Part shown: positions 19,147-36,624 of the stretch, piece by piece | How the letters are laid out: the number at the start of each line of letters is the position of its first letter | Numbering within the stretch: position 1 is the first letter of the stretch | From: Arthrobacter sp. FW306-2-2C-D06B | GTDB taxonomy: Bacteria; Actinomycetota; Actinomycetes; Actinomycetales; Micrococcaceae | DNA: 64,000 nt | Direction of reading: 5' to 3' | Assembly (NCBI RefSeq): GCF_021789175.1 | Contig: NZ_CP084560.1 | Coordinates: 4,092,001 to 4,156,000, forward strand | Made by a program: the position numbers and the translations under genes | Notes under the pieces: generated by a model | What the model saw: only the letters and a program-made list of their open reading frames with translations | What the model was told of the DNA's origin: nothing | Database searches by the model: none

Positions 19147-19307
19147 GGAGCGACTAACTCACCGTTCCAGGAGGCTATGTGGATGCCTCCGTGATTGGTT
19201 CCGTCCTGAGCCAACCCCTTTCGGCATATCGAGTTCCGAACGGCCGTCACTTGATGTATACAATTGAACGCGGCCTGAGCACTACAAACGTCGCCGAAGG
19301 GGGAACC

Positions 19308-19754
19308 GTGGAGGGCACCGAACCGCCATCAGGGATGCAGGCAAGCATCGACAGAACCGTGGAATGGGTGGACACCGATGCGTCGGGCCATCAGCACAAT
19401 TCGGCGATCATGCGCTGGGTGGAGGCTGCCGAGGCAGAGCTCTTCCGCAATCTGGTGCTTCCGGAGTATTTTCCGAGCGCTCCACGAGTGCAGCAAGTGG
19501 TCAATTACACCGCCAAGCTGTGGTTTGGCCAGCGGGTGACAGCGACCGTGCGGATCCAAAAAGTCGGCCGCTCATCCATGACCCTTGCCTTTGAGGTCTA
19601 CGGCCACGCCCATCCAAACTCGCCGGGCGGCCTCGCTGCCCATGGCACACTGACCACAGCCCACGTGCCCTCGGGCTCGGTTTCAGCCCAGCCGTGGCCG
19701 GAACGGATCCGGCAGGCGGCTGGCGTAGCGGTCCCGAACAGTCCGGGGCTCTGA
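19308..19754 (+). CDS. hotdog-fold acyl-CoA thioesterase (4-hydroxybenzoyl-CoA thioesterase type)
   Basis: A 148-residue single hotdog domain. DTDASGHQHNSAIMRWVEAAEAELFR near residue 20 matches the 4HBT/YbgC catalytic helix pattern (D-x-D-x-x-G-H-x-x-N-x-x-x). It would hydrolyse an acyl- or aroyl-CoA. The GTG start at 19308 has GGGGGAA just upstream. A longer frame from 19179 is rejected because a -10-like TACAAT sits at 19259. The stop is 6 bp before a PaaX-family regulator, so they form a pair. The PaaX link suggests phenylacetyl-CoA or another aryl-CoA as substrate, but this is inference. Confidence 0.8.
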   Translation: MEGTEPPSGMQASIDRTVEWVDTDASGHQHNSAIMRWVEAAEAELFRNLVLPEYFPSAPRVQQVVNYTAKLWFGQRVTATVRIQKVGRSSMTLAFEVYGHAHPNSPGGLAAHGTLTTAHVPSGSVSAQPWPERIRQAAGVAVPNSPGL

Positions 19755-19760
19755 ACCGTG

Positions 19761-20642
19761 ATGGACATGCCCGCACCGCCGGTACGCCACCAGCAGCTGA
19801 TCGTCACCATCTATGGGCTCTACGGCCGGAGTTCGGGCGATGCCCTCCCTGTCTCAGTGCTGATTTCCATGCTGGGCGACCTCGGCTACGACGCGCCCGG
19901 AGTCCGTTCCTCTGTCTCGCGGCTGAAGGCCAAGGGTGTCCTCAAAAGTGTCCGCCAGGACGGCGTCGCCAAATACGAACTATCCGACACTGTTCTGGAT
20001 GTTTTCCGCGAGGGCGACCGGAGGATCTTCGCCGCCGATCGCTCCACCGAGCTGGAATCCTGGGTGCTCGCCGTGTTTTCCGTCCCTGAATCAATGCGGA
20101 ACCGTCGGCACCAACTACGCTCCGAGCTCTCCGGGCTCGGTTTTGGATCCGTGGCCTCAGGGGTATGGATCGCACCGGCCCAAGTCCTTGACCAAGCCCG
20201 TGAGCGGCTTGCCTCGCGCGGGCTTGTTCAGTTTGTGGACTTCTTCCGCGGCGACTACTTGTTTGAGGGCCCCATGCGGCCGAAGGTGGCCGAATGGTGG
20301 GACCTGAAGGCCATCGACGAGCAATTCGCCGAATTCCTGGACCTCTATGAAGGGGCCGGAGATCTTTGGACCGGACTGGTCGGGGATGATCCCGGGGCCG
20401 CCTTGGCCAACTCGACTGCGGAGTTGCGCCGGGATGCTTTTCGCTACTACATCCCCATGCTGACCCTGTGGCGCCGCTTCCCGTACCGGGACCCGAACCT
20501 GCCGCTGGAATACCTCCCGAAGGGATGGCGCGGTCCGGCCGTTCGCGAGACGTTCCAGGCGGTTCATCGCCTTGCCGCGCCCCTCGCGGCCGCGCACGCG
20601 CACGAACTCATCCACGGCAGCATCGACCTGGTGGCACCCTAG
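19761..20642 (+). CDS. PaaX-family transcriptional regulator
   Basis: A 293-residue PaaX-type regulator. The N-terminal winged helix (IVTIYGLYGRSSGDALPVSVLISMLGDLGYDAPGVRSSVSRL) is followed by the middle domain with VLAVFSVPESMRNRRHQLRSELSGLGFGSVASGVWIAP, very typical of PaaX. The C-terminal domain has RYYIPMLTLWRRFPYRDPNLPLEYLPKGW. PaaX proteins sense phenylacetyl-CoA-like ligands and repress aryl-CoA catabolic genes. No paa operon is in the window; only the adjacent thioesterase. Start may be GTG 19758 or ATG 19761. Confidence 0.88.
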   Translation: MDMPAPPVRHQQLIVTIYGLYGRSSGDALPVSVLISMLGDLGYDAPGVRSSVSRLKAKGVLKSVRQDGVAKYELSDTVLDVFREGDRRIFAADRSTELESWVLAVFSVPESMRNRRHQLRSELSGLGFGSVASGVWIAPAQVLDQARERLASRGLVQFVDFFRGDYLFEGPMRPKVAEWWDLKAIDEQFAEFLDLYEGAGDLWTGLVGDDPGAALANSTAELRRDAFRYYIPMLTLWRRFPYRDPNLPLEYLPKGWRGPAVRETFQAVHRLAAPLAAAHAHELIHGSIDLVAP

Positions 20643-23052: not shown

Positions 23053-23103
23053 GCATCCAAGAACAATGTCGTTCTCGACCCAAACAAATTTAGGTGATTT
23101 CAA

Positions 23104-24255
23104 ATGATGAGACAGAAACGTGCAGCCATCCTGCCCATCGTGATTTCCGTTGCGCTCCTGGGCATGACGGGCTGTCAACGAGCGAGCGAGAGCACAAATG
23201 CCGCGGGGACCTCAAACCCCGAAAGCGCCGCCACCAAGGCGCTAGCCCTCGACATCGCGCCGGTGACCGCTAGCCCCAAGATCCAGTCGGTCAAGAACGG
23301 GACTTCCTTACGTGGCAAAAACATCAGGTTCATCGCGAGCGGCCTCAGTTTCCCGTTCAGCCAGGACGTTCTTGCCGGCGTCAAGGAGGGCGCCGCGGCT
23401 GCGGGTGCCACCGTCACTGTTTCGGACAGCGAGGGCGATCCTCCGAAGGCCGCTTCCCTCGTAGATCAGGCAGTCGCCCAATCCGTCGACGTCATCCTGC
23501 TTCAGGGCACGCCCCCGAAGAGCGTTGCATCGAGCATCACCGGGGCCAAAAGCCACGGGATCCCCGTGATCAGTGTCGGCAGTAACGCGCCGGGCAAGGT
23601 CTCCAAGGAACTTGCCGATATCGGTGTATTTGCCTACGCGTCGGCAACGAACGACGTGGGTACCCGGCAGGCCAACTTCGTGGCTGCGGACTCGTCGTGC
23701 CACGCAGGTGTGCTCTACCTGGGCTCTTCGAGCTTCGGAACCTCGAGTTCCGATGTGGTCGACCAGTTCACGAAACAGTTCGCCCAGTTGTGCCCCGATG
23801 CCAAGGTCGCCGTGCAGGATGCGCCTTTGGAAGCTTGGTCGTCTCTCCTGCAACCGCAGGTCAACGCGTTTCTGCAGCGCAATCCAGAAACCCGCTACGT
23901 TGTGAGCCTTGTCGACGACATGAATCTGGCGATCAAGCCGTCGATCACCGGGCTCGCCGGCCGAAACATCCGCTTGGTGGGCTCGAACGCCATTGTCGGG
24001 GCAATGAGCGGGCTCCAGGACAAGGCGGACCCGGAGGCGGCGACAGTAGGGACCAACCTCTACCAAATGGGGTGGGCGGCGGTTGACCAGGCGATGCGCG
24101 CGATCGCAGGCGAGGATGCGGTTGCAGACGAGCAGGTCCCGAACCGGACATTTACGCGGGCCAACATCGACACGATCGACCTCGCGAAGAAGTCCGGCGA
24201 CTGGTACGGCTCGTTCGATTTCCGAACCTTCTACACCCGGCTCTGGCAAGGGTGA
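23104..24255 (+). CDS. substrate-binding lipoprotein of a CUT2-type ABC importer
   Basis: A 383-residue periplasmic-binding-protein-like lipoprotein. The signal peptide ends in LLGMTGC, a lipobox. The body belongs to the sugar-binding (peripla_BP_4, RbsB) fold: GKNIRFIASGLSFPFSQDVLAGVKEGAAAAGATVTVSDSEGDPPKAASLVDQAVAQ fits, and VDVILLQGTPPKSV is the next strand-loop. Such proteins usually bind pentoses or purine nucleosides, but neighbouring deacylases suggest another ligand. It pairs with the permease upstream and the ATPase overlapping downstream. Confidence 0.88.
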   Translation: MMRQKRAAILPIVISVALLGMTGCQRASESTNAAGTSNPESAATKALALDIAPVTASPKIQSVKNGTSLRGKNIRFIASGLSFPFSQDVLAGVKEGAAAAGATVTVSDSEGDPPKAASLVDQAVAQSVDVILLQGTPPKSVASSITGAKSHGIPVISVGSNAPGKVSKELADIGVFAYASATNDVGTRQANFVAADSSCHAGVLYLGSSSFGTSSSDVVDQFTKQFAQLCPDAKVAVQDAPLEAWSSLLQPQVNAFLQRNPETRYVVSLVDDMNLAIKPSITGLAGRNIRLVGSNAIVGAMSGLQDKADPEAATVGTNLYQMGWAAVDQAMRAIAGEDAVADEQVPNRTFTRANIDTIDLAKKSGDWYGSFDFRTFYTRLWQG

Positions 24256-25817
24256 TCAGTACCATGAACTCAACGAACCGGGAGCCCCTGCTTCGGGCCG
24301 AGCACCTCACTAAGTCCTACGGGGCCCGTCCCGTCCTCAAGGAGGCATACCTCAACATCGTGTCCGGTGAGATCCATGCCCTCCTGGGCGAGAATGGCTC
24401 AGGCAAGTCCACACTGATCAAACTCCTCGCCGGCCAGATCTCCCCGGATGGGGGCTACACGGCAGACAATGCTCCCTGCGTCACGGTGTCCGGCCGGTCG
24501 GAGGGCCTCCCGATCGACCCCAAGACGGCAGAACGCCTGAAGCTTGGATTCGTGCACCAGGATCTCGGCCTGGTCCTTTCATCCACCGTCATTGAGACGC
24601 TCGGGTTAGGCCGTTACCGAACACAGTGGGGAAGGATCAGCTGGCGCGCCCAACGGTCCTATACCGAGGAGACCCTCCGACGGTATGGACTCGGGCTCTC
24701 GCCCGACGCGGTGGTCGGACGCCTGTCCGCAGTAGAGCGGGCCATGCTGTCGATCATCAGGGGCATCGAGTCCATAAGCGGCGAAGAAAGGGGTGTGCTC
24801 GTCCTGGACGAACCCACAGCCTACCTCCCGGCGGACGCGGTGCACCAGCTATTCGAGGTCCTCCGCAGGATCAAGGCCACGGGTAGCTCGGTGTTGTTTG
24901 TGACCCACCGACTCGACGAAGTAAAGGACGTTTGCGATCGGGCAACCATCCTGAGGTCAGGAGAAGTCGTGGCAACGATGGACGTCGCGTCAGCGACTAC
25001 CGACGACCTCATAACGGCCATCCTTGGGACGAAGCTCACCGACCTCTATCCGTCCGAACATACGACCGTGACTGAGCCCGTCCTACGGGCTACAAATCTC
25101 AGCGGAGCAGAAACGCGTGATGTCTCATTCGTGGCGTCCCGCGGAGAGATCGTCGGACTGACGGGCCTCGTGGGAGATGGTTTCGAGGAGATCATCGGTC
25201 TGTGCTTCGGTGCCAGCCACGGAGAAGGGAAAGTCGAAGTCAAAGGCACGGAAGTCGAGCAGAAGTGGCTTCGACCGCGCCGTGCCATGAGCATGGGGAT
25301 GGCGTATATCCCCGCAGATCGGGCGACCTCCAGCGGTCTCATGGCGGCTTCGGCGGCCGAGAACCTCACGATGGCCACCATGAGGCGTTACTGGCGCTCG
25401 GGTCGCATGGCCTACTCAGAGGAGCACAAGGATGCAATCGAGGCGATGCGCCGTGTTGGGTTGCGGCCGCTGGCGCCCGATCTGCCCCTGAGTTCGTTCA
25501 GCGGCGGCAACCAGCAGAAACTCATCCTTGCCAAGTGGCTGCTCACCCGTCCCCACGTTCTCTTCCTCCACGAACCGACCAACGGCGTGGACGTGGGAGC
25601 AAAGAAGACTCTCTTTGACCTGATCAACCGCGCAGCCCAAGATGGCTGCTGCGTCGTGATCGCGAGCAGTGAATACGAGGATCTCGCCCATCTTTGTCAT
25701 CGAGTCATCGTCATCAAGAACGGGGCCGTCTCCGGAGAGCTGACCGGGGATCAGCTAACCACCGATGCCATCACCCACCGCTGCCTCGCCTCCACCGCGA
25801 CGCCTGCCACATCGTGA
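24252..25817 (+). CDS. ABC transporter ATP-binding protein, two-domain RbsA type
   Basis: A 521-residue duplicated ATPase. The first domain has Walker A GENGSGKST near 45 and Walker B VLVLDEPTAYLP near 190; its signature region is degenerate (VGRLSAVERAM). The second domain lacks a normal Walker A (LTGLVGDGFEEII), which is usual for RbsA-type proteins, but keeps the signature FSGGNQQK near 420 and FLHEPTNGVDVG. The GTG start overlaps the previous stop (GTGA); ATG 24264 is an alternative. It powers the adjacent importer. Confidence 0.9.
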   Translation: MISTMNSTNREPLLRAEHLTKSYGARPVLKEAYLNIVSGEIHALLGENGSGKSTLIKLLAGQISPDGGYTADNAPCVTVSGRSEGLPIDPKTAERLKLGFVHQDLGLVLSSTVIETLGLGRYRTQWGRISWRAQRSYTEETLRRYGLGLSPDAVVGRLSAVERAMLSIIRGIESISGEERGVLVLDEPTAYLPADAVHQLFEVLRRIKATGSSVLFVTHRLDEVKDVCDRATILRSGEVVATMDVASATTDDLITAILGTKLTDLYPSEHTTVTEPVLRATNLSGAETRDVSFVASRGEIVGLTGLVGDGFEEIIGLCFGASHGEGKVEVKGTEVEQKWLRPRRAMSMGMAYIPADRATSSGLMAASAAENLTMATMRRYWRSGRMAYSEEHKDAIEAMRRVGLRPLAPDLPLSSFSGGNQQKLILAKWLLTRPHVLFLHEPTNGVDVGAKKTLFDLINRAAQDGCCVVIASSEYEDLAHLCHRVIVIKNGAVSGELTGDQLTTDAITHRCLASTATPATS

Positions 25818-25840
25818 AACCAACATTAAGGAATCCCGCA

Positions 25841-26860
25841 ATGAGCGTATTCGAGGTCGGGTCCCTCCACGTACCCGCAGGGGAACTGCGACACGGTCGC
25901 CTGACCGCCACCACATCCGCCTCCGGACAAATAGTCAGTGTGCCGGTGAGCATCATGCACGGGGCGGAGCCTGGTCCTGTCCTTCTTGTCACTGGAGCCA
26001 CGCATGGCACTGAAATCACGGGAACACGAACACTTCTCAAGCTCATCGCGCGCATTGACCCGGCGAGGCTGCGAGGAACATTGATCTCAGTTCCGGTGAC
26101 CAATCCCCTTGCTTTCGACCGTGCGACCTACGCCTCTCCCGAGGACGGCATCCACCTGGGAATGCCGTGCTACTGGCCCAGCGACCCAGCCGGATCACCA
26201 ACGCTGCGGATAGGGGCGCAAGTCCGGAGTCTCTTCGATGTCGCGACTCACTACATCGACTTGCACAACAACGCGGAGCCGGCGGTGCCCATGTCGATGG
26301 AGTTCGCGGCGCAGTGCTCCTCACCCGAGGTCCGCCAAGTCCAGCGCGCAATGGCGGAAGCTTTCGGAGTCACCCCGGTGCTGATGACCGACCCAGAGGA
26401 CGGCACCGCGGAGAAGGTGGGGTCCGTGGACGGCCAACCCGCTGCTGCCGCGTCAGCACATGGTATTCCGGGGCTGATGGTCGAGTTGCTCGACGAGCAT
26501 GGACACCAAGGATACGAAGCGGGTGTCCGAGGTGTCCTCAACATCATGTCCAAGCTAGGAATGTTGGAGGAACCAGTTGCACCCCAGTTGGTGGAAAGGC
26601 TCCACGGAAGTTTCACCTACCATGGGGTACTCACCTCCCGCGAGTCAGGTGTTCTATTCCCGGTTTGCGATCCAGGAACAGTTATGGAGCAAGGCAGCGT
26701 TGTTGCGCACATCGTGGGCATGGATGGGTCGATGTTGGAAGAGGTCAAGATGCCCGTCACGGGATTCGTGTGGGCTTTCCTGACGACGGCGCCAGGGGGC
26801 GGGTCCTTTGCCGTGCCCGAAGGCCATGCCGTCGGATTCGTTGCGGCGGCCGACGTATGA
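25841..26860 (+). CDS. succinylglutamate desuccinylase/aspartoacylase-family deacylase
   Basis: A 339-residue zinc hydrolase of the AstE/AspA group. GATHGTEITGTRTLLK near residue 50 gives the metal H-x-x-E motif, YIDLHNN near 145 gives the third ligand region, and GLMVELLDEHG near 215 gives the catalytic Glu region. The C-terminal beta domain (GVLFPVCDPGTVMEQGSVVAHI) is shared with the family. An AAGGA site precedes ATG 25841. It sits between the ABC importer and an M20 amidohydrolase, which it overlaps by ATGA. Expected to cleave an N-acyl amino acid or related amide brought in by the importer; the substrate is unproven. Confidence 0.85.
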   Translation: MSVFEVGSLHVPAGELRHGRLTATTSASGQIVSVPVSIMHGAEPGPVLLVTGATHGTEITGTRTLLKLIARIDPARLRGTLISVPVTNPLAFDRATYASPEDGIHLGMPCYWPSDPAGSPTLRIGAQVRSLFDVATHYIDLHNNAEPAVPMSMEFAAQCSSPEVRQVQRAMAEAFGVTPVLMTDPEDGTAEKVGSVDGQPAAAASAHGIPGLMVELLDEHGHQGYEAGVRGVLNIMSKLGMLEEPVAPQLVERLHGSFTYHGVLTSRESGVLFPVCDPGTVMEQGSVVAHIVGMDGSMLEEVKMPVTGFVWAFLTTAPGGGSFAVPEGHAVGFVAAADV

Positions 26861-28053
26861 GCGCCAACGCAGCCATCCCCGAGACCATGGGGGCATCTGC
26901 CACCAGGAATACCCAACTCCGAAACGCCATTAAAGGGGCAGTGCAGGCGGAGATAGAGGCTTTTCGCGACCAGGCGATCGATCTCAGCCATCGCATCCAC
27001 GGCATGCCCGAACTCGGTTTTGCCGAGTTTAAGTCCAGCAGGGAAGTCGCGAACGAGCTGCGCGCAGCCGGATTCACAGTGACAGAACGCGCCTTCGGGC
27101 TGGACACCGCGATCTCCGCAGTTGCCGGAGCAGGCTCCTTCAAAGCGATCGTGGTAGCGGAGTACGACGCATTGCCAGAGCTCGGCCACGCCTGCGGCCA
27201 CAACCTGATCGCAGCATGCGCAGTCGCTGCGGCTGTGGGACTGAAGGGCGTGGCTGAGCAGCTCGATCTCACGGTCGAAGTGTTGGGCACCCCGGCAGAG
27301 GAGACCGGCGGCGGCAAGATCCTCATGCTGGAACAAGGTGCATTCATCGGCGCCGACATGGCCATGATGATCCATCCTGCGCCATTCGAAGACGCCTCGC
27401 CAGGCTTCCTCGCCAGCACCGGTTTCTCCTTCGAGTTCTCAGGTAAGAGCTCGCACGCCGCCGCGTCGCCATGGGAGGCCGCGAACGCCGCCGACGCATC
27501 GACCATCGCGCAGGTCGCCGTCGGTTTGCTTCGGCAGCAGCTCCCCAACGACACCCGAGTCCATGGTGTTGTCACGAATGCCGGTTCTGCTGCCAACGTG
27601 ATCCCAGGAAGTTCCGCGGGTGTGTACGGGATCAGAGCCCAGACCCTTGCGGACCTTGAGGATATGGTCCCACGTGTCGAGGCCTGCTTCACGGGGGCAG
27701 CCCTCGCGGCCGGCTGCACAGTGGAATTGGAATGGGAACTGACATACCCGAATGTCGTGCAGTCGCCGCGGCTGGCCTCGCTGTATCAGCAGAATGCGGA
27801 GGCCCTAGGCCGAAGCTTTCCGAAGGATCCGGAAGCCCGCGCATTCCGTGCCTCCACCGACTTCGGCGCCGTCTCCCAAGTCGTCCCAAGCCTCCATCCG
27901 CACGTCAAGATTTGCGACTCGCCCGTGTCCAACCATCAGTCCGCGTTCACAGAAGCTGCAGCCTCGGAGCGAGCTGATCAGGCGCTCATCGAAGGCGCGA
28001 TCGCGATGGCTTGGACGGTTGTGGACGCCGCGCTATCACGAATTCGCCGGTGA
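26857..28053 (+). CDS. M20-family amidohydrolase, PM20D2/AbgB-like
   Basis: A 398-residue metallo-amidohydrolase. VVAEYDALPELGHACGHNLIAACAVAAAV near residue 105 and GTPAEETGGGKI near 148 are the signature of the PM20D2/AbgA-AbgB branch, which acts on beta-alanyl dipeptides or p-aminobenzoyl-glutamate. A SSHAAASPWEAANAADA block marks the dimerisation domain. The start overlaps the upstream deacylase (ATGA); the long open frame back to 26167 is a shadow of that gene. Last gene of the importer operon, followed by a strong hairpin at 28109. Together with the deacylase it suggests stepwise hydrolysis of a conjugate bearing two amide bonds. Confidence 0.87.
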   Translation: MSANAAIPETMGASATRNTQLRNAIKGAVQAEIEAFRDQAIDLSHRIHGMPELGFAEFKSSREVANELRAAGFTVTERAFGLDTAISAVAGAGSFKAIVVAEYDALPELGHACGHNLIAACAVAAAVGLKGVAEQLDLTVEVLGTPAEETGGGKILMLEQGAFIGADMAMMIHPAPFEDASPGFLASTGFSFEFSGKSSHAAASPWEAANAADASTIAQVAVGLLRQQLPNDTRVHGVVTNAGSAANVIPGSSAGVYGIRAQTLADLEDMVPRVEACFTGAALAAGCTVELEWELTYPNVVQSPRLASLYQQNAEALGRSFPKDPEARAFRASTDFGAVSQVVPSLHPHVKICDSPVSNHQSAFTEAAASERADQALIEGAIAMAWTVVDAALSRIRR

Positions 28054-28108
28054 CTCACTGGAATTCTGCGGCAACACAGTTCTCGCGGGCAAGTCCAGGC
28101 AGCACGCA

Positions 28109-28139
28109 GGTGGGCCGGCCGCAATGCGGTCGGCCCACC
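28109..28139. terminator. bidirectional terminator hairpin
   Basis: GGTGGGCCGGCCGC (28109-28122) pairs with GCGGTCGGCCCACC (28126-28139) with one mismatch and a 3-nt loop. It lies between the convergent amidohydrolase and permease genes. Confidence 0.8.
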
Positions 28140-28146
28140 CAACACC

Positions 28147-29637
28147 CTAAGAGTTCGCGGCCCCCTCCAGTTTCCGGTCGCCGTCGAAATCGGAGCCGAC
28201 GACGGCGGATCCGCCGGCGGTGCCGGTTGCAGAACCGTCGGCGTCGGACTCCGCGGTTCCCGAAGCGGAGCCTCTGCGGCCCTTCTTCAGGACAAAGTAG
28301 AGGATGACGATGCCGAGGGCGAACGGAACCCCGAAGATCAGTGTCATCCGGAAGGCCTCGACGAAGAGGGTCGTGACCATGATGGCAACCATGAGGATGG
28401 CCCCGGCCCATGACGCCGCCGGGTAGAGACGCAGCTTGTATGACAGAGCCGTTCCGTCTCGCTTCGCCGCGCGTCGGAACGCCAGGTGGGTCACGAAGAT
28501 CATGAGCCAGGTGGCCATGGCCCCGAACATGGACAGCGCCATCATGAAGGTGAAGCCCGACTCCGGGTTCAAGGCGTATACGCAGGCCGCGACCGCGATC
28601 CCGCCTGTGCAAAGAATCAGGGCGTTGACCGGGGATCCGTTCTTGTGGAGCCTTCCGAACACGGCGGGCGCCTGCCCTGCACGGGACAGGCTGAACATCA
28701 TGCGTGTGGAGATGTAGAGCTGCGAATTCATGGCTGAAAGAGCAGCCACAATCACCACGACGTTGATGACGGAGTCTGCGAACGGGATGCCGATGACCTG
28801 CATGACGGTGACGAAGGGGCTGTTTCCGGCAAGGATCTGGCTGACGGGTGCAATGGCCAGGATCAGCGCCAGGGTCAGGATGTAGAAGAGGAAGAGCCGG
28901 AATACCGTGACCTTGAAAGCCTTCTTGACGGCCGTTCCCGGATCCTTCGCTTCGCCCGCAGCGATGGCGATCATCTCCACCGAGAGGTAGCTGAAGATCG
29001 CCACAATCACGGCCACCCACATGCCGGACACGCCGTTGGGGAAGAACCCGCCCTCGGCAGTGTAGTTGTGGATTCCGTATCCAGCCTCTCGCTTTCCAAA
29101 GACCAGGATGGCGGCGAGCAGGATGAATCCGAGGATGGCGAACACCTTGATGCTGGAGAACCAGTATTCCAGGGTGCCGAAGGCCTTGACGTTGAACATG
29201 TTGACCGCGATGAGGACACCGGCAAACAACAGGATCCAGACCAGCGGAGGAACTCCGGGGAACCACAGCTTCATGTAGTCCCCGATCGCAAGCACTTCGG
29301 TGCCCACGGCCAGCACAACGCAGGACCAGTAGAGGTACTTCACCAGGAATCCGGCGAGGGGCGAAATGTAGTACTCGGCGAAGGCCCCGAAGGACCCGGT
29401 GGTCGAATGGGCCACGGTCATCTCAGCCAGCGCGCCCATCAGCATCACGGCGATCAGGCCACCGATCGCATAACTCAGCAGGACGCTGGGTCCGGCGAAA
29501 GATATGGCGAACTTGCTTCCGAGGAAAAGCCCAGTGCCGATCGCGCCGCCCAGCGCGATCATGGTCAACTGTGGGCTGGTGAGTTCGCGCTTGAGTCCGC
29601 GTTCGCGGTTTTTAATCAGGTCGAAGCTGTGTGACAT
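28147..29637 (-). CDS. amino acid permease (APC superfamily)
   Basis: A 496-residue permease of the amino acid-polyamine-organocation superfamily with about 12 helices. LKRELTSPQLTMIALGGAIGTGLFLGSKFAISFAGPSVLLSYAIGG near the N-terminus is the classical substrate-binding unwound helix 1 region (GGxIGTGLFLG) of the GabP/AnsP/LysP group. The C-terminus is a hydrophilic tail. ATG 29637 has AAGGAG. It follows ridA on the minus strand with a 46-bp gap, and both are divergent from the ring-degradation operon. It could import an amino-aromatic acid used by that operon, but normal amino acids are equally possible. Confidence 0.9.
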   Translation of the reverse strand: MSHSFDLIKNRERGLKRELTSPQLTMIALGGAIGTGLFLGSKFAISFAGPSVLLSYAIGGLIAVMLMGALAEMTVAHSTTGSFGAFAEYYISPLAGFLVKYLYWSCVVLAVGTEVLAIGDYMKLWFPGVPPLVWILLFAGVLIAVNMFNVKAFGTLEYWFSSIKVFAILGFILLAAILVFGKREAGYGIHNYTAEGGFFPNGVSGMWVAVIVAIFSYLSVEMIAIAAGEAKDPGTAVKKAFKVTVFRLFLFYILTLALILAIAPVSQILAGNSPFVTVMQVIGIPFADSVINVVVIVAALSAMNSQLYISTRMMFSLSRAGQAPAVFGRLHKNGSPVNALILCTGGIAVAACVYALNPESGFTFMMALSMFGAMATWLMIFVTHLAFRRAAKRDGTALSYKLRLYPAASWAGAILMVAIMVTTLFVEAFRMTLIFGVPFALGIVILYFVLKKGRRGSASGTAESDADGSATGTAGGSAVVGSDFDGDRKLEGAANS

Positions 29638-29683: not shown

Positions 29684-30082
29684 CTAGCGCTCCGGAATGA
29701 CGGCGATGCCTTGGATCTCGATGAGGGCTTCCTTCTGCCACAGCCGGGTGACACCGATTCCGGCCATCGCGGGATACTCAGAACCGGCCATTTCGCGCCA
29801 GATCCGACCAATCTCGCGGCCGTTGGCCATGTAGTCGTCCACGTCGGTGAGGTAAATGGTCACGCTGACCAGGTCCTCAGGTAGTCCGCCGGCTTCGCGC
29901 AGGGTGGTCAGCACATTGGAAAACGCCTGCGTGAACTGTTCCACGATCCCGCCGGGAACGATGTTCATGTCCTTGTCCAGGGCCGTCTGGCCACCCAAGA
30001 ACAGCGTGTTTCCGGCAAGCATTCCGTGCGCAAAGCCCGACGGCTTCGGGAGCGAACCTGGATTGACGGTCTTGTGGCTCAT
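29684..30082 (-). CDS. ridA: RidA-family enamine/imine deaminase
   Basis: A 132-residue RidA/YER057c/UK114 protein. GFAHGMLAGNTLFLGGQTALDKD near residue 20, VTIYLTDVDDYMANG near 85, and a C-terminal RLWQKEALIEIQGIAVI fit the trimeric family; Arg near 108 (TRLW) corresponds to the catalytic Arg. RidA proteins hydrolyse reactive enamines and imines to ketones plus ammonia. AGGAGG precedes the start. Position next to an aryl-CoA monooxygenase cluster suggests it handles an amino-dienoate or imine intermediate there. Confidence 0.9.
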   Translation of the reverse strand: MSHKTVNPGSLPKPSGFAHGMLAGNTLFLGGQTALDKDMNIVPGGIVEQFTQAFSNVLTTLREAGGLPEDLVSVTIYLTDVDDYMANGREIGRIWREMAGSEYPAMAGIGVTRLWQKEALIEIQGIAVIPER

Positions 30083-30165
30083 GTTGTTCCTCCTCTTGGT
30101 GGCGGCTGCGACATGTTCGAAAAATCCCTGTGCAGATCATTCCCCGCCGTGCTACGTTGAGCATA

Positions 30166-30192
30166 TGTGACGATCGTAAAAAAGTCGACACA
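30166..30192. promoter_or_regulatory. possible operator in the divergent promoter region
   Basis: TGTGACGA (30166-30173) and TCGACACA (30185-30192) form a 7-of-8 inverted repeat in the 167-bp gap between ridA and the FAH gene. No regulator gene is in this cluster. Weak evidence. Confidence 0.3.
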
Positions 30193-30249
30193 TCAGAAGA
30201 CGCATCGGAATGAATGTAGGAATCGACAGCATACGAAGGGACAACACGC

Positions 30250-31107
30250 ATGAAGCTGGCCACCTTACGGACAGCCGACGGGGGCACGACGGCGGCGCTC
30301 GCTTTGGGCGGGAACAGTTACGTACCGCTGCCGGCCAACGACGTCGGAGCACTTCTCGCCGTCCCGGACTGGCGCGCCCTGGCGGAAGCAGCGTTTGTTG
30401 CAGCGTCTGGACCGGGAGTCGTTTTCGCACCTGCCGGCGAGCTGGCACCTCTGCTTCCACGGGCCGGAAAAGTCATCTGCTGCGGGTTGAACTACGGCGA
30501 CCACATTCAGGAGATGGGCCGCGAACTGCCGGAATACCCCACGCTCTTCGCGAAGTACGCGGACACCCTAATCGGGCCGGCTGAGACGATCCATGTCCAC
30601 GGCAGCGCGAAGGTCGACTGGGAAGCCGAGCTGGCCGTCGTGGTCGGCTCCGTGCTGTTCCGCGCGGACGAGGACCAAGCCCGCGCGGCAATTGCCGGGT
30701 ACACAATCGCCAACGACGTTTCCATGCGCGACTGGCAGAACCGCACGCTGCAGTGGTTTCAGGGCAAGGCGTTCGACGGAACCACCCCGGTAGGCCCAGT
30801 CATGGTGACCGCGGACGAGGTCGACGGCGACTTCGAGGTCCGCGGTTATGTCAACGGCGAGCTGGTGCAGCACGGGAACACCAGCACCTTGGTGTTCGAA
30901 CCGGCGAAACTCCTTTCCTACATCTCCCAGTTCACTATCCTGCGCCCCGGAGACCTTGTCCTGACCGGTACGCCCGGCGGAGTCGGCATGGGTATGACAC
31001 CGCCGCGCTTCCTGAACGACGGCGATGTCCTCACCACCGAAATCGACGGGATCGGAAGGCTGGAAAACCAATTCAGAATCCACGCACCCGTCCCCGCCAA
31101 CGCCTAG
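30250..31107 (+). CDS. fumarylacetoacetate hydrolase-family protein
   Basis: A 285-residue FAH-fold enzyme. The N-terminal cap is followed by the catalytic domain from about 75 (KVICCGLNYGDHIQEMG). VDWEAELAVVVG near 120 gives the metal-binding E-x-E, and IANDVSMRDWQ near 155 the Asp and RDWQ block. LTGTPGGVGMGMTPP near 240 closes the site. Family members hydrolyse fumarylpyruvate, maleylpyruvate or fumarylacetoacetate, or hydrate/decarboxylate related keto acids. First gene of a five-gene plus-strand operon with cupin, thioesterase, ligase and monooxygenase; likely the last step, after ring opening. Confidence 0.9.
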   Translation: MKLATLRTADGGTTAALALGGNSYVPLPANDVGALLAVPDWRALAEAAFVAASGPGVVFAPAGELAPLLPRAGKVICCGLNYGDHIQEMGRELPEYPTLFAKYADTLIGPAETIHVHGSAKVDWEAELAVVVGSVLFRADEDQARAAIAGYTIANDVSMRDWQNRTLQWFQGKAFDGTTPVGPVMVTADEVDGDFEVRGYVNGELVQHGNTSTLVFEPAKLLSYISQFTILRPGDLVLTGTPGGVGMGMTPPRFLNDGDVLTTEIDGIGRLENQFRIHAPVPANA

Positions 31108-31140
31108 ACCAATACCAACCACTTCAAAGGAGTGAGCATC

Positions 31141-31623
31141 ATGAGCGAAACCGCCACCGAATACCGAACCGAAGGCGACAACTCCACCTACGCCCAGCCC
31201 GACGGCAAAGTGATTCCGGTCGTCACGCGCGCCGGCGAAGAGGATACCAACACGGCCCAGTCCGGCGATTGCGTTCGCGTCTCGGGCGTCAGCATCCAGC
31301 ACACGCCGGCCACCAAGATCTGGTTCGGGCAGGTCTCCAACGTTCCCGGCTATCGTTCCTTGCCGCACCACCATGGCGAAGCGGAAACCGGCGGCTACGT
31401 GCTCCGCGGCCACGGACGCATCTATTTCGGCGAGAACTACTCCGAATTCCTGGACATGAAGACCGGCGACTGGGTATTCGTCCCGCCGTTCATGCCACAC
31501 GTCGAGGCCAACATGTCCGTCACCGAAGAACTCGTGTGGCTGACCGCGCGCACCCCGGAGAACCTCGTGGTCAACCTCGAAGACGTTGCCGACGAGACCC
31601 TAGCAGACTTCCGCAGGGCCTGA
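31141..31623 (+). CDS. small cupin-domain protein (possible ring-cleavage or isomerase role)
   Basis: A 160-residue single cupin. Motif 1, HHHGEAETGGYVLRG near residue 78, has metal His residues and Glu; motif 2, GDWVFVPPFMPHVEAN near 110, has the second-motif His. It is far smaller than bicupin gentisate dioxygenases (about 350 residues), so if it cleaves a ring it is a different type. An AAAGGAG site precedes ATG 31141. It lies between FAH hydrolase and thioesterase; the stop overlaps the next start (TGATG). A role on a thioester or free ring product is inferred. Confidence 0.8.
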   Translation: MSETATEYRTEGDNSTYAQPDGKVIPVVTRAGEEDTNTAQSGDCVRVSGVSIQHTPATKIWFGQVSNVPGYRSLPHHHGEAETGGYVLRGHGRIYFGENYSEFLDMKTGDWVFVPPFMPHVEANMSVTEELVWLTARTPENLVVNLEDVADETLADFRRA

Positions 31624-32519
31624 TGGACATGTCCACTGGAATCCTGACCTCGGAGACGTTCCTCAAGGCCATCGAACTGACGGCCGTCCCCGCCCAGATC
31701 CACGACGAAGCCTACGAAGCCACGTCGCAGTACGTTCCGTGGCCCAAGGCTTACGGCGGAGACATGGTGGCCCAGGCCGCCGCAGCGATGATGCGCTCGG
31801 TGGACGCCGACCGCTCGCTGCATTCCATGCACAGCTACTTCATGCGCCCAGTGGAGATCGGGGCAACGGTCCGCTACGAGGTTGAACGCCTCCGCGACGG
31901 CCGCGGATACTCGACCCGAAGCGTGCGGGGCCACCAGAACGGCAAGACCGTGTACGCCGCGATGGGCTCCTTCCAAGTGCCCGAAGACGGCCCGGACTTC
32001 CAGCCGGAGGCGCCTACCGCCGTCGAACCCGAATCCCTGCGCAGCGCCGCCGAGGTGCTACAGGGGGTCGAGGGGCCGGCTGCCGAGTACTGGTCCTCGA
32101 AGCGCAGCTTCGACATGCGACATATTCCCGGACCGGTATATCTGCAGGTCGAAGGCGATTCTGTGCCGCATCAGGCAATCTGGGTGAAAGCCTTCGAGCA
32201 ATTGCCCGACGCCGGTGACGATCACGCGACGGCAGATCTGCACCGGGCCGCGCTGGCATACGTCTGCGACTACACCATCCTTGAGCCTCTGCTCCGGGTG
32301 AACGGGCTCCACTGGTCCAGCCCCGGACTTGCCACGGCCAGCCTGGACCACTCCATGTGGTTCCACCGGGACGGCCGCGCGGATGACTGGGTCCTGTACG
32401 CCCAGGAGGCCGTGTCCGGACAAAGCAACAGGGGGCTGGCCACGGGCCGTTTCTTTGACAGGCAAGGACGCCTGCTGGCAACGGTTGCCCAGGAAGGCAT
32501 GATCCGCGCCGGCTCCTGA
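31623..32519 (+). CDS. acyl-CoA thioesterase II (TesB family)
   Basis: A 298-residue double-hotdog thioesterase. The first hotdog has AYGGDMVAQAAAAMMRSV near residue 40 and LHSMHSYFMRPVEIGATVRYEVERLRDGRGYSTRSV; the second has SLDHSMWFHRDGRADDWVLYAQEAVSGQSNRGLATGRFFDRQGRLLATVAQEG, the family's catalytic Asp and Gln/Thr region. ATG 31623 overlaps the cupin stop; ATG 31629 is possible. In this operon it would free the acid from its CoA ester after the monooxygenase has acted. Confidence 0.88.
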   Translation: MDMSTGILTSETFLKAIELTAVPAQIHDEAYEATSQYVPWPKAYGGDMVAQAAAAMMRSVDADRSLHSMHSYFMRPVEIGATVRYEVERLRDGRGYSTRSVRGHQNGKTVYAAMGSFQVPEDGPDFQPEAPTAVEPESLRSAAEVLQGVEGPAAEYWSSKRSFDMRHIPGPVYLQVEGDSVPHQAIWVKAFEQLPDAGDDHATADLHRAALAYVCDYTILEPLLRVNGLHWSSPGLATASLDHSMWFHRDGRADDWVLYAQEAVSGQSNRGLATGRFFDRQGRLLATVAQEGMIRAGS

Positions 32520-32560
32520 ACACCTTCGACTTATCCGCCGTATTACTGAAAGGAGTGGCC

Positions 32561-34219
32561 ATGACAATGTTGAGATCAGCCCACGTGGACACCTTCACCC
32601 GCGACCATTTGCCACCGGCCGGCACGTGGCCGACCCTCGAATTCACCCTGCCGGAACTCCAGTACCCGGCGACGCTCAACGCAGCAGCGGCGCTCATTGA
32701 CGACGCCGTCGCAAACCATGGTGCCGGACGCCCCGCGCTGCGAACCCCCGACGGCGCGGTCTGGACTTACGGTGAACTGCAGCAGCGGGCCAACCAAGTC
32801 GCCCAGGTCCTCACCGAAGACCTCGCAGTGGTACCCGGCAACCGCGTCATGCTGCGCGGACCGAACAATCCCTGGATTGTCGCGGCCTGGCTTGGCGTGC
32901 TCAAAGCCGGAGCCGTCGTTGTCACCACCATGCCGATGCTGCGTTCCAGCGAAGTCGGCACGCTTATCAGCCTCACACGTCCCACCGTAGCCATCTCCGA
33001 CCACCGGTTCATGGACGAACTGCTCACGGCCGTAGGAGAGGACACCATTGTCCTCTCCTACGGATCCGACGACGCCGGCGACCTCGCGTCCCGCTGTGCC
33101 GCCAAGAGCGGCGAGTTCGCTGCCGTGCCGACCTCCGCCGACGACGTCGCGCTGCTCGGCCCGACGTCGGGCACCACGGGCACGCCCAAGATCACCATGC
33201 ATTTCCACCGGGACATCCTCGCGAACGCCGACACTTTTGCCCGCCATATTCTGCAGCCAACCGCCGACGACGTGTTTGCCGGTTCACCACCCCTCGCCTT
33301 CACGTTCGGTCTCGGTGGGCTGGTGGTCTTCCCCCTGCGCTTCGGCGCATCCTCGCTGCTGACAGAACGGGCCACCCCCGTGGAACTTGCCGAGAGTGCT
33401 GCAGCTGCCGGGGCCACCATCCTGTTCACCGCGCCCACTGCGTACCGGGCCATCCTCAAGGAAGGCCGCGGATCGTTGCTCCGCAAGCTCCGGGTAGCGG
33501 TCTCGGCGGGCGAACACTTGCCCAAGGAAACGTGGGAGGCAGTTCAAGCAGCCACAGGGCTCCGGCTCGTCAATGGCATCGGAGCCACCGAATTGTTGCA
33601 TGTGTTCATTTCCGCGTCCGGGGACGACATCCGGCCCGGCACCACCGGACGGGCCGTGCCCGGGTACAGGGCAGCCATCCTCGACGACGAGGGCCTGGAA
33701 CTAGGACCCGGGCAGCTTGGGCGGCTCGCCGTCATCGGCCCTACCGGATGCCGCTACCTGGACGACCCGCGGCAAGCGAATTATGTGGTCAACGGCTGGA
33801 ACGTCACCGGCGATACCTTCACGAAAGACGAGGACGGGTACTTCACGTATCAGGCCCGGTCGGACAACATGATCGTTTCCTCCGGCTACAACATCGGCGC
33901 CCCCGAGGTGGAAACCGCCATCGACCTGCACCCGGACGTGGTGGAGAATGCCGTCATCGGCCGGCCCGACGAGGCACGCGGCAGTGTCGTCTGCGCGTTC
34001 ATCGTCCTGAGCGAAGGCGTCAGGGGCGATGACGCGAAGCGCAAGGAAATCCAGGACTTCGTCAAACGGACGATCGCCCCCTACAAGTACCCGCGGGACA
34101 TCCGGTTCGTCGATGAACTTCCCCGCAATCCCAGCGGCAAGCTGCAGCATTTCAAGCTGCGCGACCGTATCAACAACGACCCCGAACAGCTTGCCGGCGC
34201 AGGCCTGGGCCAGGCCTGA
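32561..34219 (+). CDS. aryl-CoA ligase (2-aminobenzoate/benzoate-CoA ligase type)
   Basis: A 552-residue acyl-adenylate-forming enzyme. The phosphate loop PTSGTTGTPKI lies near 205, GIGATELLHVFISA near 345 is the A5 motif, and GDTFTKDEDGYFTYQARSDNMIVSSGYNIGAPEVE near 420 covers A7-A8. The catalytic Lys is in NPSGKLQHFKL near 525. LLHVFISA after A5 is seen in benzoate- and aminobenzoate-CoA ligases. An AAAGGAG site precedes ATG 32561. Next to the fused monooxygenase it should activate an aromatic acid such as anthranilate or salicylate; which one is not determined. Confidence 0.9.
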   Translation: MTMLRSAHVDTFTRDHLPPAGTWPTLEFTLPELQYPATLNAAAALIDDAVANHGAGRPALRTPDGAVWTYGELQQRANQVAQVLTEDLAVVPGNRVMLRGPNNPWIVAAWLGVLKAGAVVVTTMPMLRSSEVGTLISLTRPTVAISDHRFMDELLTAVGEDTIVLSYGSDDAGDLASRCAAKSGEFAAVPTSADDVALLGPTSGTTGTPKITMHFHRDILANADTFARHILQPTADDVFAGSPPLAFTFGLGGLVVFPLRFGASSLLTERATPVELAESAAAAGATILFTAPTAYRAILKEGRGSLLRKLRVAVSAGEHLPKETWEAVQAATGLRLVNGIGATELLHVFISASGDDIRPGTTGRAVPGYRAAILDDEGLELGPGQLGRLAVIGPTGCRYLDDPRQANYVVNGWNVTGDTFTKDEDGYFTYQARSDNMIVSSGYNIGAPEVETAIDLHPDVVENAVIGRPDEARGSVVCAFIVLSEGVRGDDAKRKEIQDFVKRTIAPYKYPRDIRFVDELPRNPSGKLQHFKLRDRINNDPEQLAGAGLGQA

Positions 34220-34233
34220 GAAGGAGCAAAAGC

Positions 34234-36624
34234 ATGAAAATCGCAATCGTAGGAGGCGGCCCCGGCGGCCTGTACTTCGCGGCATTGATGAAGCAACTCG
34301 ACCCGTCACACAAGATCACCCTCTGGGAACGCAACGCCGCCAGCGACACTTTCGGTTTCGGCGTCGTATTCTCCGATGAGACGCTCGGCGGCATAGGCAA
34401 CGCCGACGCGGTGGTGGCCGAGTACATGGGCCGGCGCTTCGCCCGCTGGTCCGACATCGACATCCATTTCGGCGGGGAAACGGTGACGGTGGGCGGCCAG
34501 GGCTTTGCGGCCATGAGTCGCAAGGAACTGTTGGAACTGCTTCAGCGCCGGTGCGCCGAGCTCGGCGTCGACCTGCGTTTCCAGACCGTTGCGCCGCCGG
34601 TTGAGGAGCTTGAGGCCAACTATGACCTGGTCCTCGCAGCGGATGGCATCAACTCCCAGATCCGCGCGAAGTACGCGGACTCCTTCACTCCAAGCCTGGA
34701 TCTGCGGCCCAACAAGTTCATGTGGCTGGGTACGGACCAGGTGTTCGAGGCGTTCAAGTTCTTCGTCAAGGAAACCGAATGGGGAGTCATGCAGATCCAT
34801 GGCTACCCGTATTCCGACGAAGGATCCACGTTCATTGTCGAGATGCACGAGGACGTGTGGCGGGCTGCCGGCTTCGACGAGACCGCTTCCGACGTGTTAC
34901 CTCCCGGGGTCTCGGATGAAAAGGCGATTGCCAAGATCCGCACGATCTTTGAGGAGGAACTCGACGGCTACGAGGTCCTGTCCAACAACTCCAAATGGAT
35001 CAACTTCACCACCGTGCGTAACGAGAGCTGGCGCCACAACAATGTCGTGTTGCTCGGCGACGCGGCTCATACCGCACACTTCTCCATCGGTTCCGGAACC
35101 AAACTGGCCATGGAGGACTCCCTGGCACTCGCCGCGTGCCTGCACGAGCACCCGGACGTGGAGTCGGCGTTGTCTGCCTATGAAGCGGAGCGTCGTCCGG
35201 TTGTCGCATCCACCCAGCGCGCCGCCCAGGCTTCGCTTGAATGGTTCGAACGGATCGCCCAATACAAGGAGCAGGATCCGACGCAGTTCGCCTTCAACCT
35301 CCTCACGCGGAGCCGCCGCATCACACAGGAAAACCTGCGGCTGCGCGACCCGGAATTCGCCGACGCCGTGGACCGCAACTTCGCCGAGTCCCAAGGACTG
35401 ACGGAGACTGCCCCGGCCATGTTCCAACCGTTCCGGATCGGTGGACTGGAGCTCAAGAACCGCATTGTGGTCTCCCCCATGGACATGTACTCCGCGGTGG
35501 ATGGTGTCCCGGGCGACTTCCACAAAGTGCACCTCGGTTCCAAGGCACTTGGCGGCGCCGGATTGGTCATGACCGAAATGGTGTGTGTTTCCAAGAGCGG
35601 GCGGATCACCCCAGGATGCACCGGCCTGTACACGGACACACAGCGAGACAGCTGGAAGGAAATCGTGGACTTCGTCCACGCCAACTCGACGGCCAAGATC
35701 GGTGCGCAGCTGGGTCATTCCGGCCGCAAGGGCTCCACCAAGCTCATGTGGGAAGGCATCGACGAACCGCTCGCATCCGGCAACTGGCAGGCCGTTGGAC
35801 CGACGGCCCTGCCATACGGTCCCGGCAACAAGACGCCGGTGGAACTCGACCACGCAGGAATGGCCGCCATCAAGGCTGAGTTCGTCGCCGCGACCCTCCG
35901 TGCCGAAGAGGCAGGCTTCGACCTCCTTGAGGTCCATGCCGCCCACGGCTACCTGCTTTCCTCGTTCCTCTCGCCGGTGTCCAACCGCCGGACGGACGCG
36001 TACGGTGGCAGCATGGAGAACCGCCTGCGGTTCCCCCTGGAAGTGTTCGACGCCGTCCGTGCGGCGTGGCCTGCCAGCAAGCCTGTGACAGTACGCATCT
36101 CGGCGACGGACTGGATCGAAGGCGGCAACACCTCAGACGACTCGCTCGACATCGCGCGGGCATTCGTGGCTCATGGCGCCGCGGGCATCGACGTCTCCAC
36201 CGGCCAGGTCGCCAAGGAAGAACAACCGGCTTTCGGCCGAAGCTACCAGACGCCGTTCGCCGACCGAATCCGCCAGGAGGTCGCCGCACCCGCCGGAGCA
36301 GCCGTCATCGCCGTCGGTGCCATCTCCAGCTACGACGACGTCAACTCCATCCTCCTCGCAGGACGGGCCGACCTCGTGGCCCTGGGCCGGACGCACCTGT
36401 ACGACGCTCAGTGGACCCTCCACGCCGCAGCCGAGCAGGAATACCAAGGCCCCGGGGCGCAGTGGGTGCCGCAGTTCCGGGCGGGCCGACGCAAACCGCC
36501 AAGTTCCCGCACGGATGCCGTTAGGCCCAGGCTTTCACTCTTGAAAGAGCGCGAGTCCGACGCCGACAACACGCACCTGCGATGGACCCCGAGAGCAGTC
36601 TCCGCGCCCGCACTGGCCAACTAG
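34234..36624 (+). CDS. fused FAD monooxygenase / Old Yellow Enzyme acting on an aryl-CoA
   Basis: A 796-residue natural fusion. Residues 1-390 are a PHBH-type flavin monooxygenase: GGGPGGLYFAALM at the start, DG motif VLAADGINSQIR near 135, and VVLLGDAAHTAHFSIGSG near 270. Residues 395-750 are an Old Yellow Enzyme barrel: FQPFRIGGLELKNRIVVSPMDMYS, HSGRKG, HAAHGYLLSSFLSP and DAYGGSMENRLRFPLEVF. This is the layout of 2-aminobenzoyl-CoA monooxygenase/reductase and of proteins annotated as bifunctional salicylyl-CoA 5-hydroxylase. It would hydroxylate the aryl-CoA at C5 and then reduce the ring. Last gene of the operon, 14 bp after the ligase with an AAGGAG site. Confidence 0.92.
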   Translation: MKIAIVGGGPGGLYFAALMKQLDPSHKITLWERNAASDTFGFGVVFSDETLGGIGNADAVVAEYMGRRFARWSDIDIHFGGETVTVGGQGFAAMSRKELLELLQRRCAELGVDLRFQTVAPPVEELEANYDLVLAADGINSQIRAKYADSFTPSLDLRPNKFMWLGTDQVFEAFKFFVKETEWGVMQIHGYPYSDEGSTFIVEMHEDVWRAAGFDETASDVLPPGVSDEKAIAKIRTIFEEELDGYEVLSNNSKWINFTTVRNESWRHNNVVLLGDAAHTAHFSIGSGTKLAMEDSLALAACLHEHPDVESALSAYEAERRPVVASTQRAAQASLEWFERIAQYKEQDPTQFAFNLLTRSRRITQENLRLRDPEFADAVDRNFAESQGLTETAPAMFQPFRIGGLELKNRIVVSPMDMYSAVDGVPGDFHKVHLGSKALGGAGLVMTEMVCVSKSGRITPGCTGLYTDTQRDSWKEIVDFVHANSTAKIGAQLGHSGRKGSTKLMWEGIDEPLASGNWQAVGPTALPYGPGNKTPVELDHAGMAAIKAEFVAATLRAEEAGFDLLEVHAAHGYLLSSFLSPVSNRRTDAYGGSMENRLRFPLEVFDAVRAAWPASKPVTVRISATDWIEGGNTSDDSLDIARAFVAHGAAGIDVSTGQVAKEEQPAFGRSYQTPFADRIRQEVAAPAGAAVIAVGAISSYDDVNSILLAGRADLVALGRTHLYDAQWTLHAAAEQEYQGPGAQWVPQFRAGRRKPPSSRTDAVRPRLSLLKERESDADNTHLRWTPRAVSAPALAN

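Follow-up and report, generated by a model that had tools for sequence, protein, structure and literature searches.

A 64,000-nucleotide (nt) stretch of the genome of the soil bacterium Arthrobacter sp. FW306-2-2C-D06B (the window; contig NZ_CP084560.1, positions 4,092,001 to 4,156,000) carries a catabolic module which, judged from sequence, is a recurrent variant of the known 2-aminobenzoyl-CoA pathway, equipped with a cupin/FAH cassette and not with beta-oxidation genes. On the minus strand it comprises a RidA-family enamine/imine deaminase gene (29684..30082, Pfam PF01042) and, across a divergent intergenic region of 167 nt likely to hold the promoters (30083..30249), five plus-strand genes. 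These code for a FAH-family hydrolase, probably acting on 2,4-dioxo acids (acylpyruvates) (30250..31107, PF01557, 228 bits), a small monocupin with a GTG start, proposed here as a ring-opening dioxygenase (31132..31623, Pfam Cupin_2/Cupin_1), a TesB-type acyl-CoA thioesterase (31623..32519, Acyl_CoA_thio and 4HBT_3), an AMP-forming anthranilate-CoA ligase, so named by homology (32561..34219; 328 bits on the TIGR02262 benzoate-CoA ligase family, below its cut-off of 375), and a putative 2-aminobenzoyl-CoA monooxygenase/reductase of 796 amino acids, a FAD monooxygenase fused to an old yellow enzyme (OYE) (34234..36624, FAD_binding_3 and Oxidored_FMN). The five genes are separated by short distances (24 nt between FAH and cupin, 41 nt between TesB and ligase, 14 nt between ligase and fusion) or, in the case of cupin and TesB, overlap by 1 nt within TGATG, and therefore likely form a single operon. 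The first-pass annotation had described this gene set, with an amino-acid permease beside RidA on the minus strand, as a CoA-thioester route without beta-oxidation genes; both the arrangement and the route are borne out.

For the module we propose an aerobic 2-aminobenzoyl-CoA pathway of a cupin/FAH type, a five-step scheme for anthranilate which is on balance probable, if narrowly so. The ligase would form anthraniloyl-CoA, an activity shown for a homologue of 80% identity provided that the gene mapping given below is right. The fusion would hydroxylate C5 and its OYE half would reduce the ring to 2-amino-5-oxocyclohex-1-ene-carbonyl-CoA, as is known for the Azoarcus enzyme, and RidA would hydrolyse the ring enamine to ammonia and 2,5-dioxocyclohexane-carbonyl-CoA. 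The cupin, as an iron-type dioxygenase acting before or after TesB, would then cleave the C1-C2 bond of the beta-keto ring, by analogy with acetylacetone dioxygenase acting on beta-dicarbonyls, which with release of the thioester would give succinylpyruvate (2,4-dioxopimelate), and FAH would split the latter into succinate and pyruvate. Seven carbons would go in, and four plus three come out. The cupin would in this way stand in for the classical crotonase and acyl-CoA dehydrogenase, and the scheme as a whole would be a dihydro version of the gentisate pathway, in which prior removal of the ring double bond makes both maleylpyruvate isomerase and beta-oxidation unnecessary. The early steps are known, while the ring-opening half is a chemically coherent, unproven proposal.

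The recurrence of the module was assessed in 128 loci with a full-length fusion: the window, the best 80 of 494 relatives found, 13 of 16 hand-picked plasmid loci, and 34 loci taken from 296 genomes drawn from the phylum. Neighbours were counted by tblastn within about 9.5 kb of the fusion. The set does not include short stretches later replaced by longer ones (L097-L116, L097 being the window), fusion-less stretches of the same genome (L117-L119) and of plasmids (L085, L091, L096), a partial match in G267, shorter single-domain matches, and loci from L154 onward. Two Rhodobacterales cupins without a BLAST match to the window cupin were dropped as seeds before counting; they represent another cupin family (51% mutual identity) lying in or near beta-oxidation-type anthraniloyl-CoA clusters (L089, 18713-19165; L095, 7533-7985).

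The cupin was found at 91 loci (80 with FAH), a crotonase (enoyl-CoA hydratase) or acyl-CoA dehydrogenase at 29, both at none and neither at eight, several of which are on short contigs. The beta-oxidation-type loci, with examples in Paracoccus, Ruegeria, Paroceanicella and Caballeronia, hold enoyl-CoA hydratase (28 of 29), acyl-CoA dehydrogenase (27 of 29) and a short-chain dehydrogenase/reductase (SDR; 14 of 29), and the crotonase and dehydrogenase seeds have no match near any of the 91 cupin-type loci. RidA accompanies both forms (90/91 cupin-type, 27/29 beta-oxidation-type loci), and TesB lies near 87 cupin-type loci and none of the beta-oxidation type. In the window itself, tblastn at 1e-5 with Paracoccus and Paroceanicella seeds found no match for enoyl-CoA hydratase, acyl-CoA dehydrogenase, HADH or SDR within the 64 kb, in agreement with the absence of beta-oxidation genes stated earlier; the idea that the module is a variant without them gains from its recurrence, 91 of the 128 fusion loci being of the cupin type. 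A comparison of the gene neighbourhoods, suggested in the first-pass annotation as a check, found the order RidA (minus), FAH, cupin, TesB, ligase, fusion to be identical in 60 of the 80 related loci, so the order is not a matter of chance; 14 of the other 20 keep it without FAH in place and six deviate.

Among the best 80 loci, those closest to the window's operon are from Arthrobacter. The variant is not confined to this genome: of 121 genomes of the genus, 42 carry the fusion, and named loci of Streptomyces, Rhodococcus, Rhizobium and Rhodobacterales also have the cupin form. Of the 296 phylum-draw genomes, three have a match to the cupin itself (E up to 1e-30), in each case with the fusion at the same locus. 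In three loci (L009, L014, L041) a single fusion is surrounded by second copies of cupin and ligase, which resembles a partial operon duplication.

The substrate is likely anthranilate, given the homology of the ligase, the growth of Arthrobacter sp. Rue61a and the anthranilate-making neighbours of related modules. Plasmid pAL1 of Rue61a codes for homologues of the cupin, the ligase and the fusion with 87.5%, 80.4% and 82.7% identity, respectively. ARUE_113p00220 and ARUE_c41730 are reported to confer anthranilate-CoA ligase activity when expressed in E. coli (PMC3534580). By our mapping, ARUE_113p00220 and ARUE_113p00230 would be the ligase and the fusion of the pAL1 operon, since the fusion has one place in the record and the paper, in the part used here, calls the two genes plasmid-borne ligase and monooxygenase/reductase (PMC3534580). 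The same part of that paper states that Rue61a grows on anthranilate and not on salicylate, gentisate or 5-hydroxyanthranilate, and that pAL1 also bears the upper quinaldine pathway, the end product of which is anthranilate (PMC3534580). Homologous modules in other genomes adjoin kynU, tryptophan dioxygenase with a KynU-like gene, the PQS dioxygenase gene aqdC1, or indole-type genes. The FW306-2-2C-D06B genome has two tryptophan dioxygenase loci, in one of which a kynureninase-like gene follows (232 bits against a cut-off of 246, the gene being incomplete at the end of the stretch).

The fusion also scores above the cut-off (1225 bits against 1078) on NF006101, named bifunctional salicylyl-CoA 5-hydroxylase/oxidoreductase, and the genome has a gentisate dioxygenase-like gene with a FAH gene elsewhere, which together would fit salicylate degradation via salicylyl-CoA and gentisyl-CoA as the NCBI family name implies. 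This alternative is very improbable: the 80%-identical ligase maps to an anthranilate-CoA ligase of a strain that is reported not to use salicylate (PMC3534580), RidA is hard to explain without nitrogen, the neighbours of the module in other genomes make anthranilate, and gentisate dioxygenase seeds match near none of the 91 cupin-type loci. Salicylate is thus an unlikely substrate, set aside chiefly on ligase homology, RidA and neighbours, and the comparison suggests that 'salicylyl-CoA 5-hydroxylase' is a family label, misleading for cupin-type loci. The earlier preference for anthranilate over salicylate is upheld by the ligase, RidA and the neighbours. It had rested on RidA and the permease, of which RidA keeps its value by its presence at the loci of both types; the permease was dropped as evidence, since it and the genes around it are shared with L001-L004 only.

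The reductive half of the fusion is central to the proposed scheme. In the review literature, in the part used here, the Azoarcus enzyme is described as converting 2-aminobenzoyl-CoA to the non-aromatic 2-amino-5-oxocyclohex-1-ene-carbonyl-CoA (PMC4539516). The OYE triad H568, H571 and Y573 is invariant in all 91 cupin-type fusions, as are Q492, H495, K499, R621 and W627. Among beta-oxidation-type fusions the triad is complete in 17 of 17 from the nearer part of the tree, in which the cupin types are nested, and its losses are confined to a distant clade; in the neither-type fusions it is complete in three of eight. Reductive activity is therefore expected of each cupin-type fusion, and is perhaps lacking in some distant relatives. 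Position 417, a Cys in many OYEs, is Asp in the window fusion, in 86 of the 91 cupin-type and in 10 of the 29 beta-oxidation-type fusions; the aligned solved chain 5nux, which we take to be an engineered Cys-to-Asp ene-reductase, reads SPMD as well. In most of the distant clade itself (L137-L153), RidA and beta-oxidation genes lie close to the fusion; with the triad altered in nine of its 12 beta-oxidation-type members, the clade is perhaps a sub-family that hydroxylates without reducing.

As RidA is common to both forms, the simplest assumption is that its substrate is the compound made by the fusion. The retention of RidA, together with the intact triad, argues for an intermediate that is both reduced and deaminated, and the candidate is the reduced INTERMEDIATE, 2,5-dioxocyclohexane-carboxyl-CoA (acid formula C7H8O4). 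In Rue61a, CoA esters of C7H7NO3 and C7H8O4 are reported on anthranilate only, and were suggested by the authors to be hydroxyanthraniloyl-CoA and cyclohexanedione-carboxyl-CoA, respectively (PMC3534580). The formula predicted for the RidA product matches that of the C7H8O4 ester of the anthranilate-grown strain.

Alternatively, the fusion would only hydroxylate, TesB would free 5-hydroxyanthranilate and the cupin would cleave the aromatic ring in the manner of gentisate dioxygenase, with RidA or spontaneous hydrolysis removing the nitrogen and FAH cleaving a fumaryl- or maleyl-pyruvate type product. We regard this route as unlikely, although several observations speak for it: TesB is encoded between the cupin and the ligase and is confined to the cupin type among the two forms, FAH shares 48.5% identity with its counterpart in the separate gentisate cluster of this genome, fusions with a lost triad in the distant clade suggest that some family members may hydroxylate without reducing, the C7H7NO3 ester of anthranilate-grown Rue61a is presumably hydroxyanthraniloyl-CoA (PMC3534580), and a gentisate-type anthranilate route via 5-hydroxyanthranilate is reported for Nocardia opaca in the review part used here (PMC4539516). 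It would, however, leave an intact OYE triad without function in every one of the 91 cupin-type fusions, and beta-oxidation-type clusters, which are not expected to cleave an aromatic ring, retain RidA to the same extent. The lack of growth of Rue61a on 5-hydroxyanthranilate, gentisate and salicylate, as given in the cited part of the genome paper, also disfavours it, although uptake could be the cause and 5-hydroxyanthranilate was converted cometabolically (PMC3534580). Moreover, BLAST at 1e-3 shows no match between the cupin and the gentisate dioxygenase-like protein of this genome, the cupin motif is not of the 3-His type, and no maleylpyruvate isomerase is found among the module genes, with no search aimed at isomerases made. 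The order of activation, hydroxylation, release and cleavage read from the operon by the first-pass annotation is accordingly the less likely one, with the intact triad and the missing cupin match against it.

A classical gentisate pathway inside the cluster was rejected, as there is no gentisate dioxygenase there and the genome keeps separate gentisate-type genes. The latter form a cluster at about 1.18 Mb (L117, 1176000-1194000) with a bicupin gentisate dioxygenase-like protein (TIGR02272, 272 bits, cut-off 442), a FAH, a 3-hydroxybenzoate 6-monooxygenase-like protein (345 bits, cut-off 459) and two open reading frames between, by eye an MFS transporter and an IclR-type regulator.

In the proposed scheme, ring opening falls to the cupin and FAH. 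The cupin has the conserved motifs PHHHGEAETGG and PHxExN, and its metal-binding motif, H79-x-H81-x3-E85 ... H123, suggests an extra Glu ligand. Its AlphaFold2 model is a monocupin fold with a mean pLDDT (the model's own confidence score) of 77; an earlier model from close homologues only (mean pLDDT 63) was poor and was not used. The protein has no NCBIfam match at 0.001 and only weak sequence matches to solved structures. Dke1 is absent from both the sequence and the fold matches listed, and gentisate dioxygenase from the sequence matches listed. FAH would suit the last step of the scheme, given its identity of 48.5% with the gentisate-cluster FAH. With 185 bits (cut-off 500), its best NCBIfam match is 2,4-didehydro-3-deoxy-L-rhamnonate hydrolase of rhamnose breakdown, an enzyme acting on a 2,4-dioxo acid; the same family is the best match of the Alloyangia FAH (419 bits). 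Its best solved relative is 6j57, presumably the fumarylpyruvate hydrolase of Corynebacterium glutamicum, with which residues H85, E88 and K173 align.

The cupin and FAH are also neighbours in fusion-less stretches, accompanied by SDRs or a stand-alone alkene reductase (one FAH being known by its annotated name only); in the Pacificitalea cupin stretch FAH is shorter and farther away. SDRs lie in the cupin stretches of Rhizobium (L086), Rhodobacterales (L092) and fusion-less Alloyangia (L085), and their best NCBIfam match is trans-4-hydroxycyclohexanecarboxylate dehydrogenase (240, 233 and 232 bits, respectively, cut-off 400), a weak hint at an alicyclic substrate since the SDR superfamily is large. 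BadI, the enzyme opening the ring of 2-ketocyclohexanecarboxyl-CoA, is a crotonase, and by analogy a crotonase plausibly opens the beta-keto ring hydrolytically in the beta-oxidation form. A small cupin, Dke1, is described as accepting 2-acetylcyclohexanone and ethyl acetoacetate, to go by the part of the source used here (PMC7226712).

The cupin might instead be an isomerase, a tautomerase or an accessory deaminase, with hydrolytic opening of the beta-keto ring by FAH or TesB giving 4-oxopimelate, free or as its CoA ester, and general beta-oxidation encoded elsewhere in the genome finishing the degradation. Several keto acids are substrates of FAH-fold enzymes, non-oxygenases are among the best fold matches of the cupin, and its retention without a nearby FAH at 11 of the 91 loci means that the pair is not strictly linked. 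However, the best-matching FAH groups use 2,4-dioxo acids, which would be made only by oxidation at C1, the two genes are neighbours even where the fusion is absent, and crotonase and dehydrogenase are lacking near all cupin-type loci by the seeds used; we judge this alternative improbable, a little more so than aromatic ring cleavage by the cupin.

Several points weigh against the five-step scheme. To our knowledge, no step past the ligase has been assayed in this family, and the dioxygenase role of the cupin is unproven: its model shows a generic cupin that fits many others (auxin-binding protein, DddK, RemF and a hydroxynitrile lyase among them) as well as dioxygenases, and its predicted 3-His-1-Glu site differs from that of Dke1 and gentisate dioxygenase, which is 3-His. 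FAH is missing within about 9.5 kb of those same 11 cupin-type loci. The triad is not universal, being complete in 3 of 12 beta-oxidation-type fusions of the distant clade (36-47% identity to the window fusion) and in 20 of 29 overall, which weakens the case for a single product of the whole fusion family, and chemical deamination could account for the C7H8O4 ester as a by-product. Because a free beta-keto acid would tend to lose CO2, it is uncertain whether thioesterase or cupin acts first. Finally, the sample is biased, 80 of the 128 loci being the closest relatives; the phylum draw alone gives 2 cupin-type, 25 beta-oxidation-type and 7 neither-type loci out of 34.

The distribution of the two forms was mapped on a tree of 81 fusions, built by a quick method after removal of near-copies at 90%; of the 81, 44 are of the cupin type, 29 of the beta-oxidation type and 8 of neither. 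The cupin label occupies three places: an actinobacterial clade with 40 cupin-type members, a Rhizobium pair adjoining a Caballeronia beta-oxidation-type fusion, and a Rhodobacterales pair (L092, L093) adjoining one of Paroceanicella. Strongly supported branches force four label changes, against a mean of 27 for shuffled labels, none of 500 shufflings giving a number as low; one of the four presumably belongs to the lone neither-type member of the actinobacterial clade (L035). The tree gives these changes without direction, and some long branches are unsure. The sister group of the actinobacterial cupin-type clade consists of L122-L129, from eight genomes of 7-10 Mb of the same class (family f5), with beta-oxidation-type clusters and fusions of 59-64% identity. 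The cupins of Arthrobacter and alphaproteobacteria are 75-81% identical, far above the identity of the Rhizobium fusion (49%) and of the alphaproteobacterial FAH proteins (42-45%), and the cupin therefore seems to move between loci separately from the fusion. That a 'dihydrogentisate' pathway is a new aerobic ring-cleavage route, with an exchange of cupin/FAH and beta-oxidation cassettes along three or more branches of the fusion tree, is put forward tentatively, as slightly less probable than an even chance.

The genome consists of one contig of 4.56 Mb with an estimated completeness of 100%. Upstream of the module, on the plus strand, lie two genes which probably belong to it. The first (19179..19754, Pfam 4HBT_2/4HBT) codes for a 4HBT-type (hotdog) thioesterase, a probable accessory enzyme about 61% identical to the thioesterase adjoining the homologous module in Arthrobacter ERGS1:01, with homologues near 58 of the 91 cupin-type loci. 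The second (19758..20642, Pfam PaaX domains; TIGR02277, 126 bits, below the cut-off of 265) codes for a PaaX-type regulator, likely the repressor of the module, with homologues near 70 of them. MeqR2 of Rue61a is reportedly a PaaX-type repressor responding to anthraniloyl-CoA, and the PaaX protein of the window perhaps senses the same compound.

Between the PaaX gene and RidA, the block 20783-29637 comprises genes for an AsnC-type regulator, a sugar-type ABC transporter with a binding protein, an aspartoacylase-like (AstE/AspA-like) protein, an M20 amidohydrolase and, at its end, the APC-family amino-acid permease (28147..29637, minus strand, Pfam AA_permease), which falls outside the range of the first-pass annotation (start 29684). 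The block perhaps serves to import an N-acyl compound or a conjugate and to hydrolyse it. The set of ABC-ATPase, AspA-like protein, M20 protein and permease is common to L001-L004 only, the closest of the 80 loci, as is the position of the permease next to RidA, so that the permease appears to be a lineage-specific neighbour. Farther away, another set of AsnC-type regulator, M20 peptidase and MFS transporter genes lies at 4176-7936, and a gene for a radical-SAM protein with a lipoyl-synthase-like N-terminal domain adjoins one for a short MTHFR-family protein at 10655-12521.

The nearest known system is that of the lower quinaldine/anthranilate genes of pAL1 (pARUE113), with the same genes in the same order and orientation, a divergent RidA and adjoining PaaX regulators; it differs in its place on a quinaldine plasmid, whereas the module described here is chromosomal, and in its other upstream neighbours. 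The genome paper of Rue61a, in the part used here, gives roles to the ligase and the fusion only (PMC3534580); no assignment of the operon's cupin or FAH was found in the open-access literature searched, and subscription papers (on the pAL1 sequence and MeqR2) may say more. The 2-aminobenzoyl-CoA pathway of the Azoarcus evansii type shares CoA activation, the fused monooxygenase/OYE and RidA (at 27 of the 29 beta-oxidation-type loci compared), but uses enoyl-CoA hydratase and acyl-CoA dehydrogenase (as seen in those loci) in place of the cupin, FAH and TesB. With the gentisate pathway the scheme would have in common the oxygenolytic opening between C1 and C2 to an acylpyruvate, followed by FAH; here, however, the cupin is small and different, the cluster has no gentisate dioxygenase, and the proposed substrate is ring-reduced. 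Dke1 is likewise a small monocupin with an oxidative C-C cleavage of a beta-dicarbonyl, the reaction proposed here, but has a 3-His site and not the predicted 3-His-1-Glu.

The breakdown routes of tryptophan, indole, quinaldine and the quinolone signal converge on anthranilate, and a 2018 review, in the part used here, describes the genes of the gentisate-type anthranilate route as still unfound (PMC6221969). The cupin/FAH cassette names candidate enzymes for the steps past 2-amino-5-oxocyclohex-1-ene-carbonyl-CoA in actinobacteria, a question testable with a handful of proteins. If the proposal is true, a function could be assigned to a cupin family whose members have generic names only among the matches listed.

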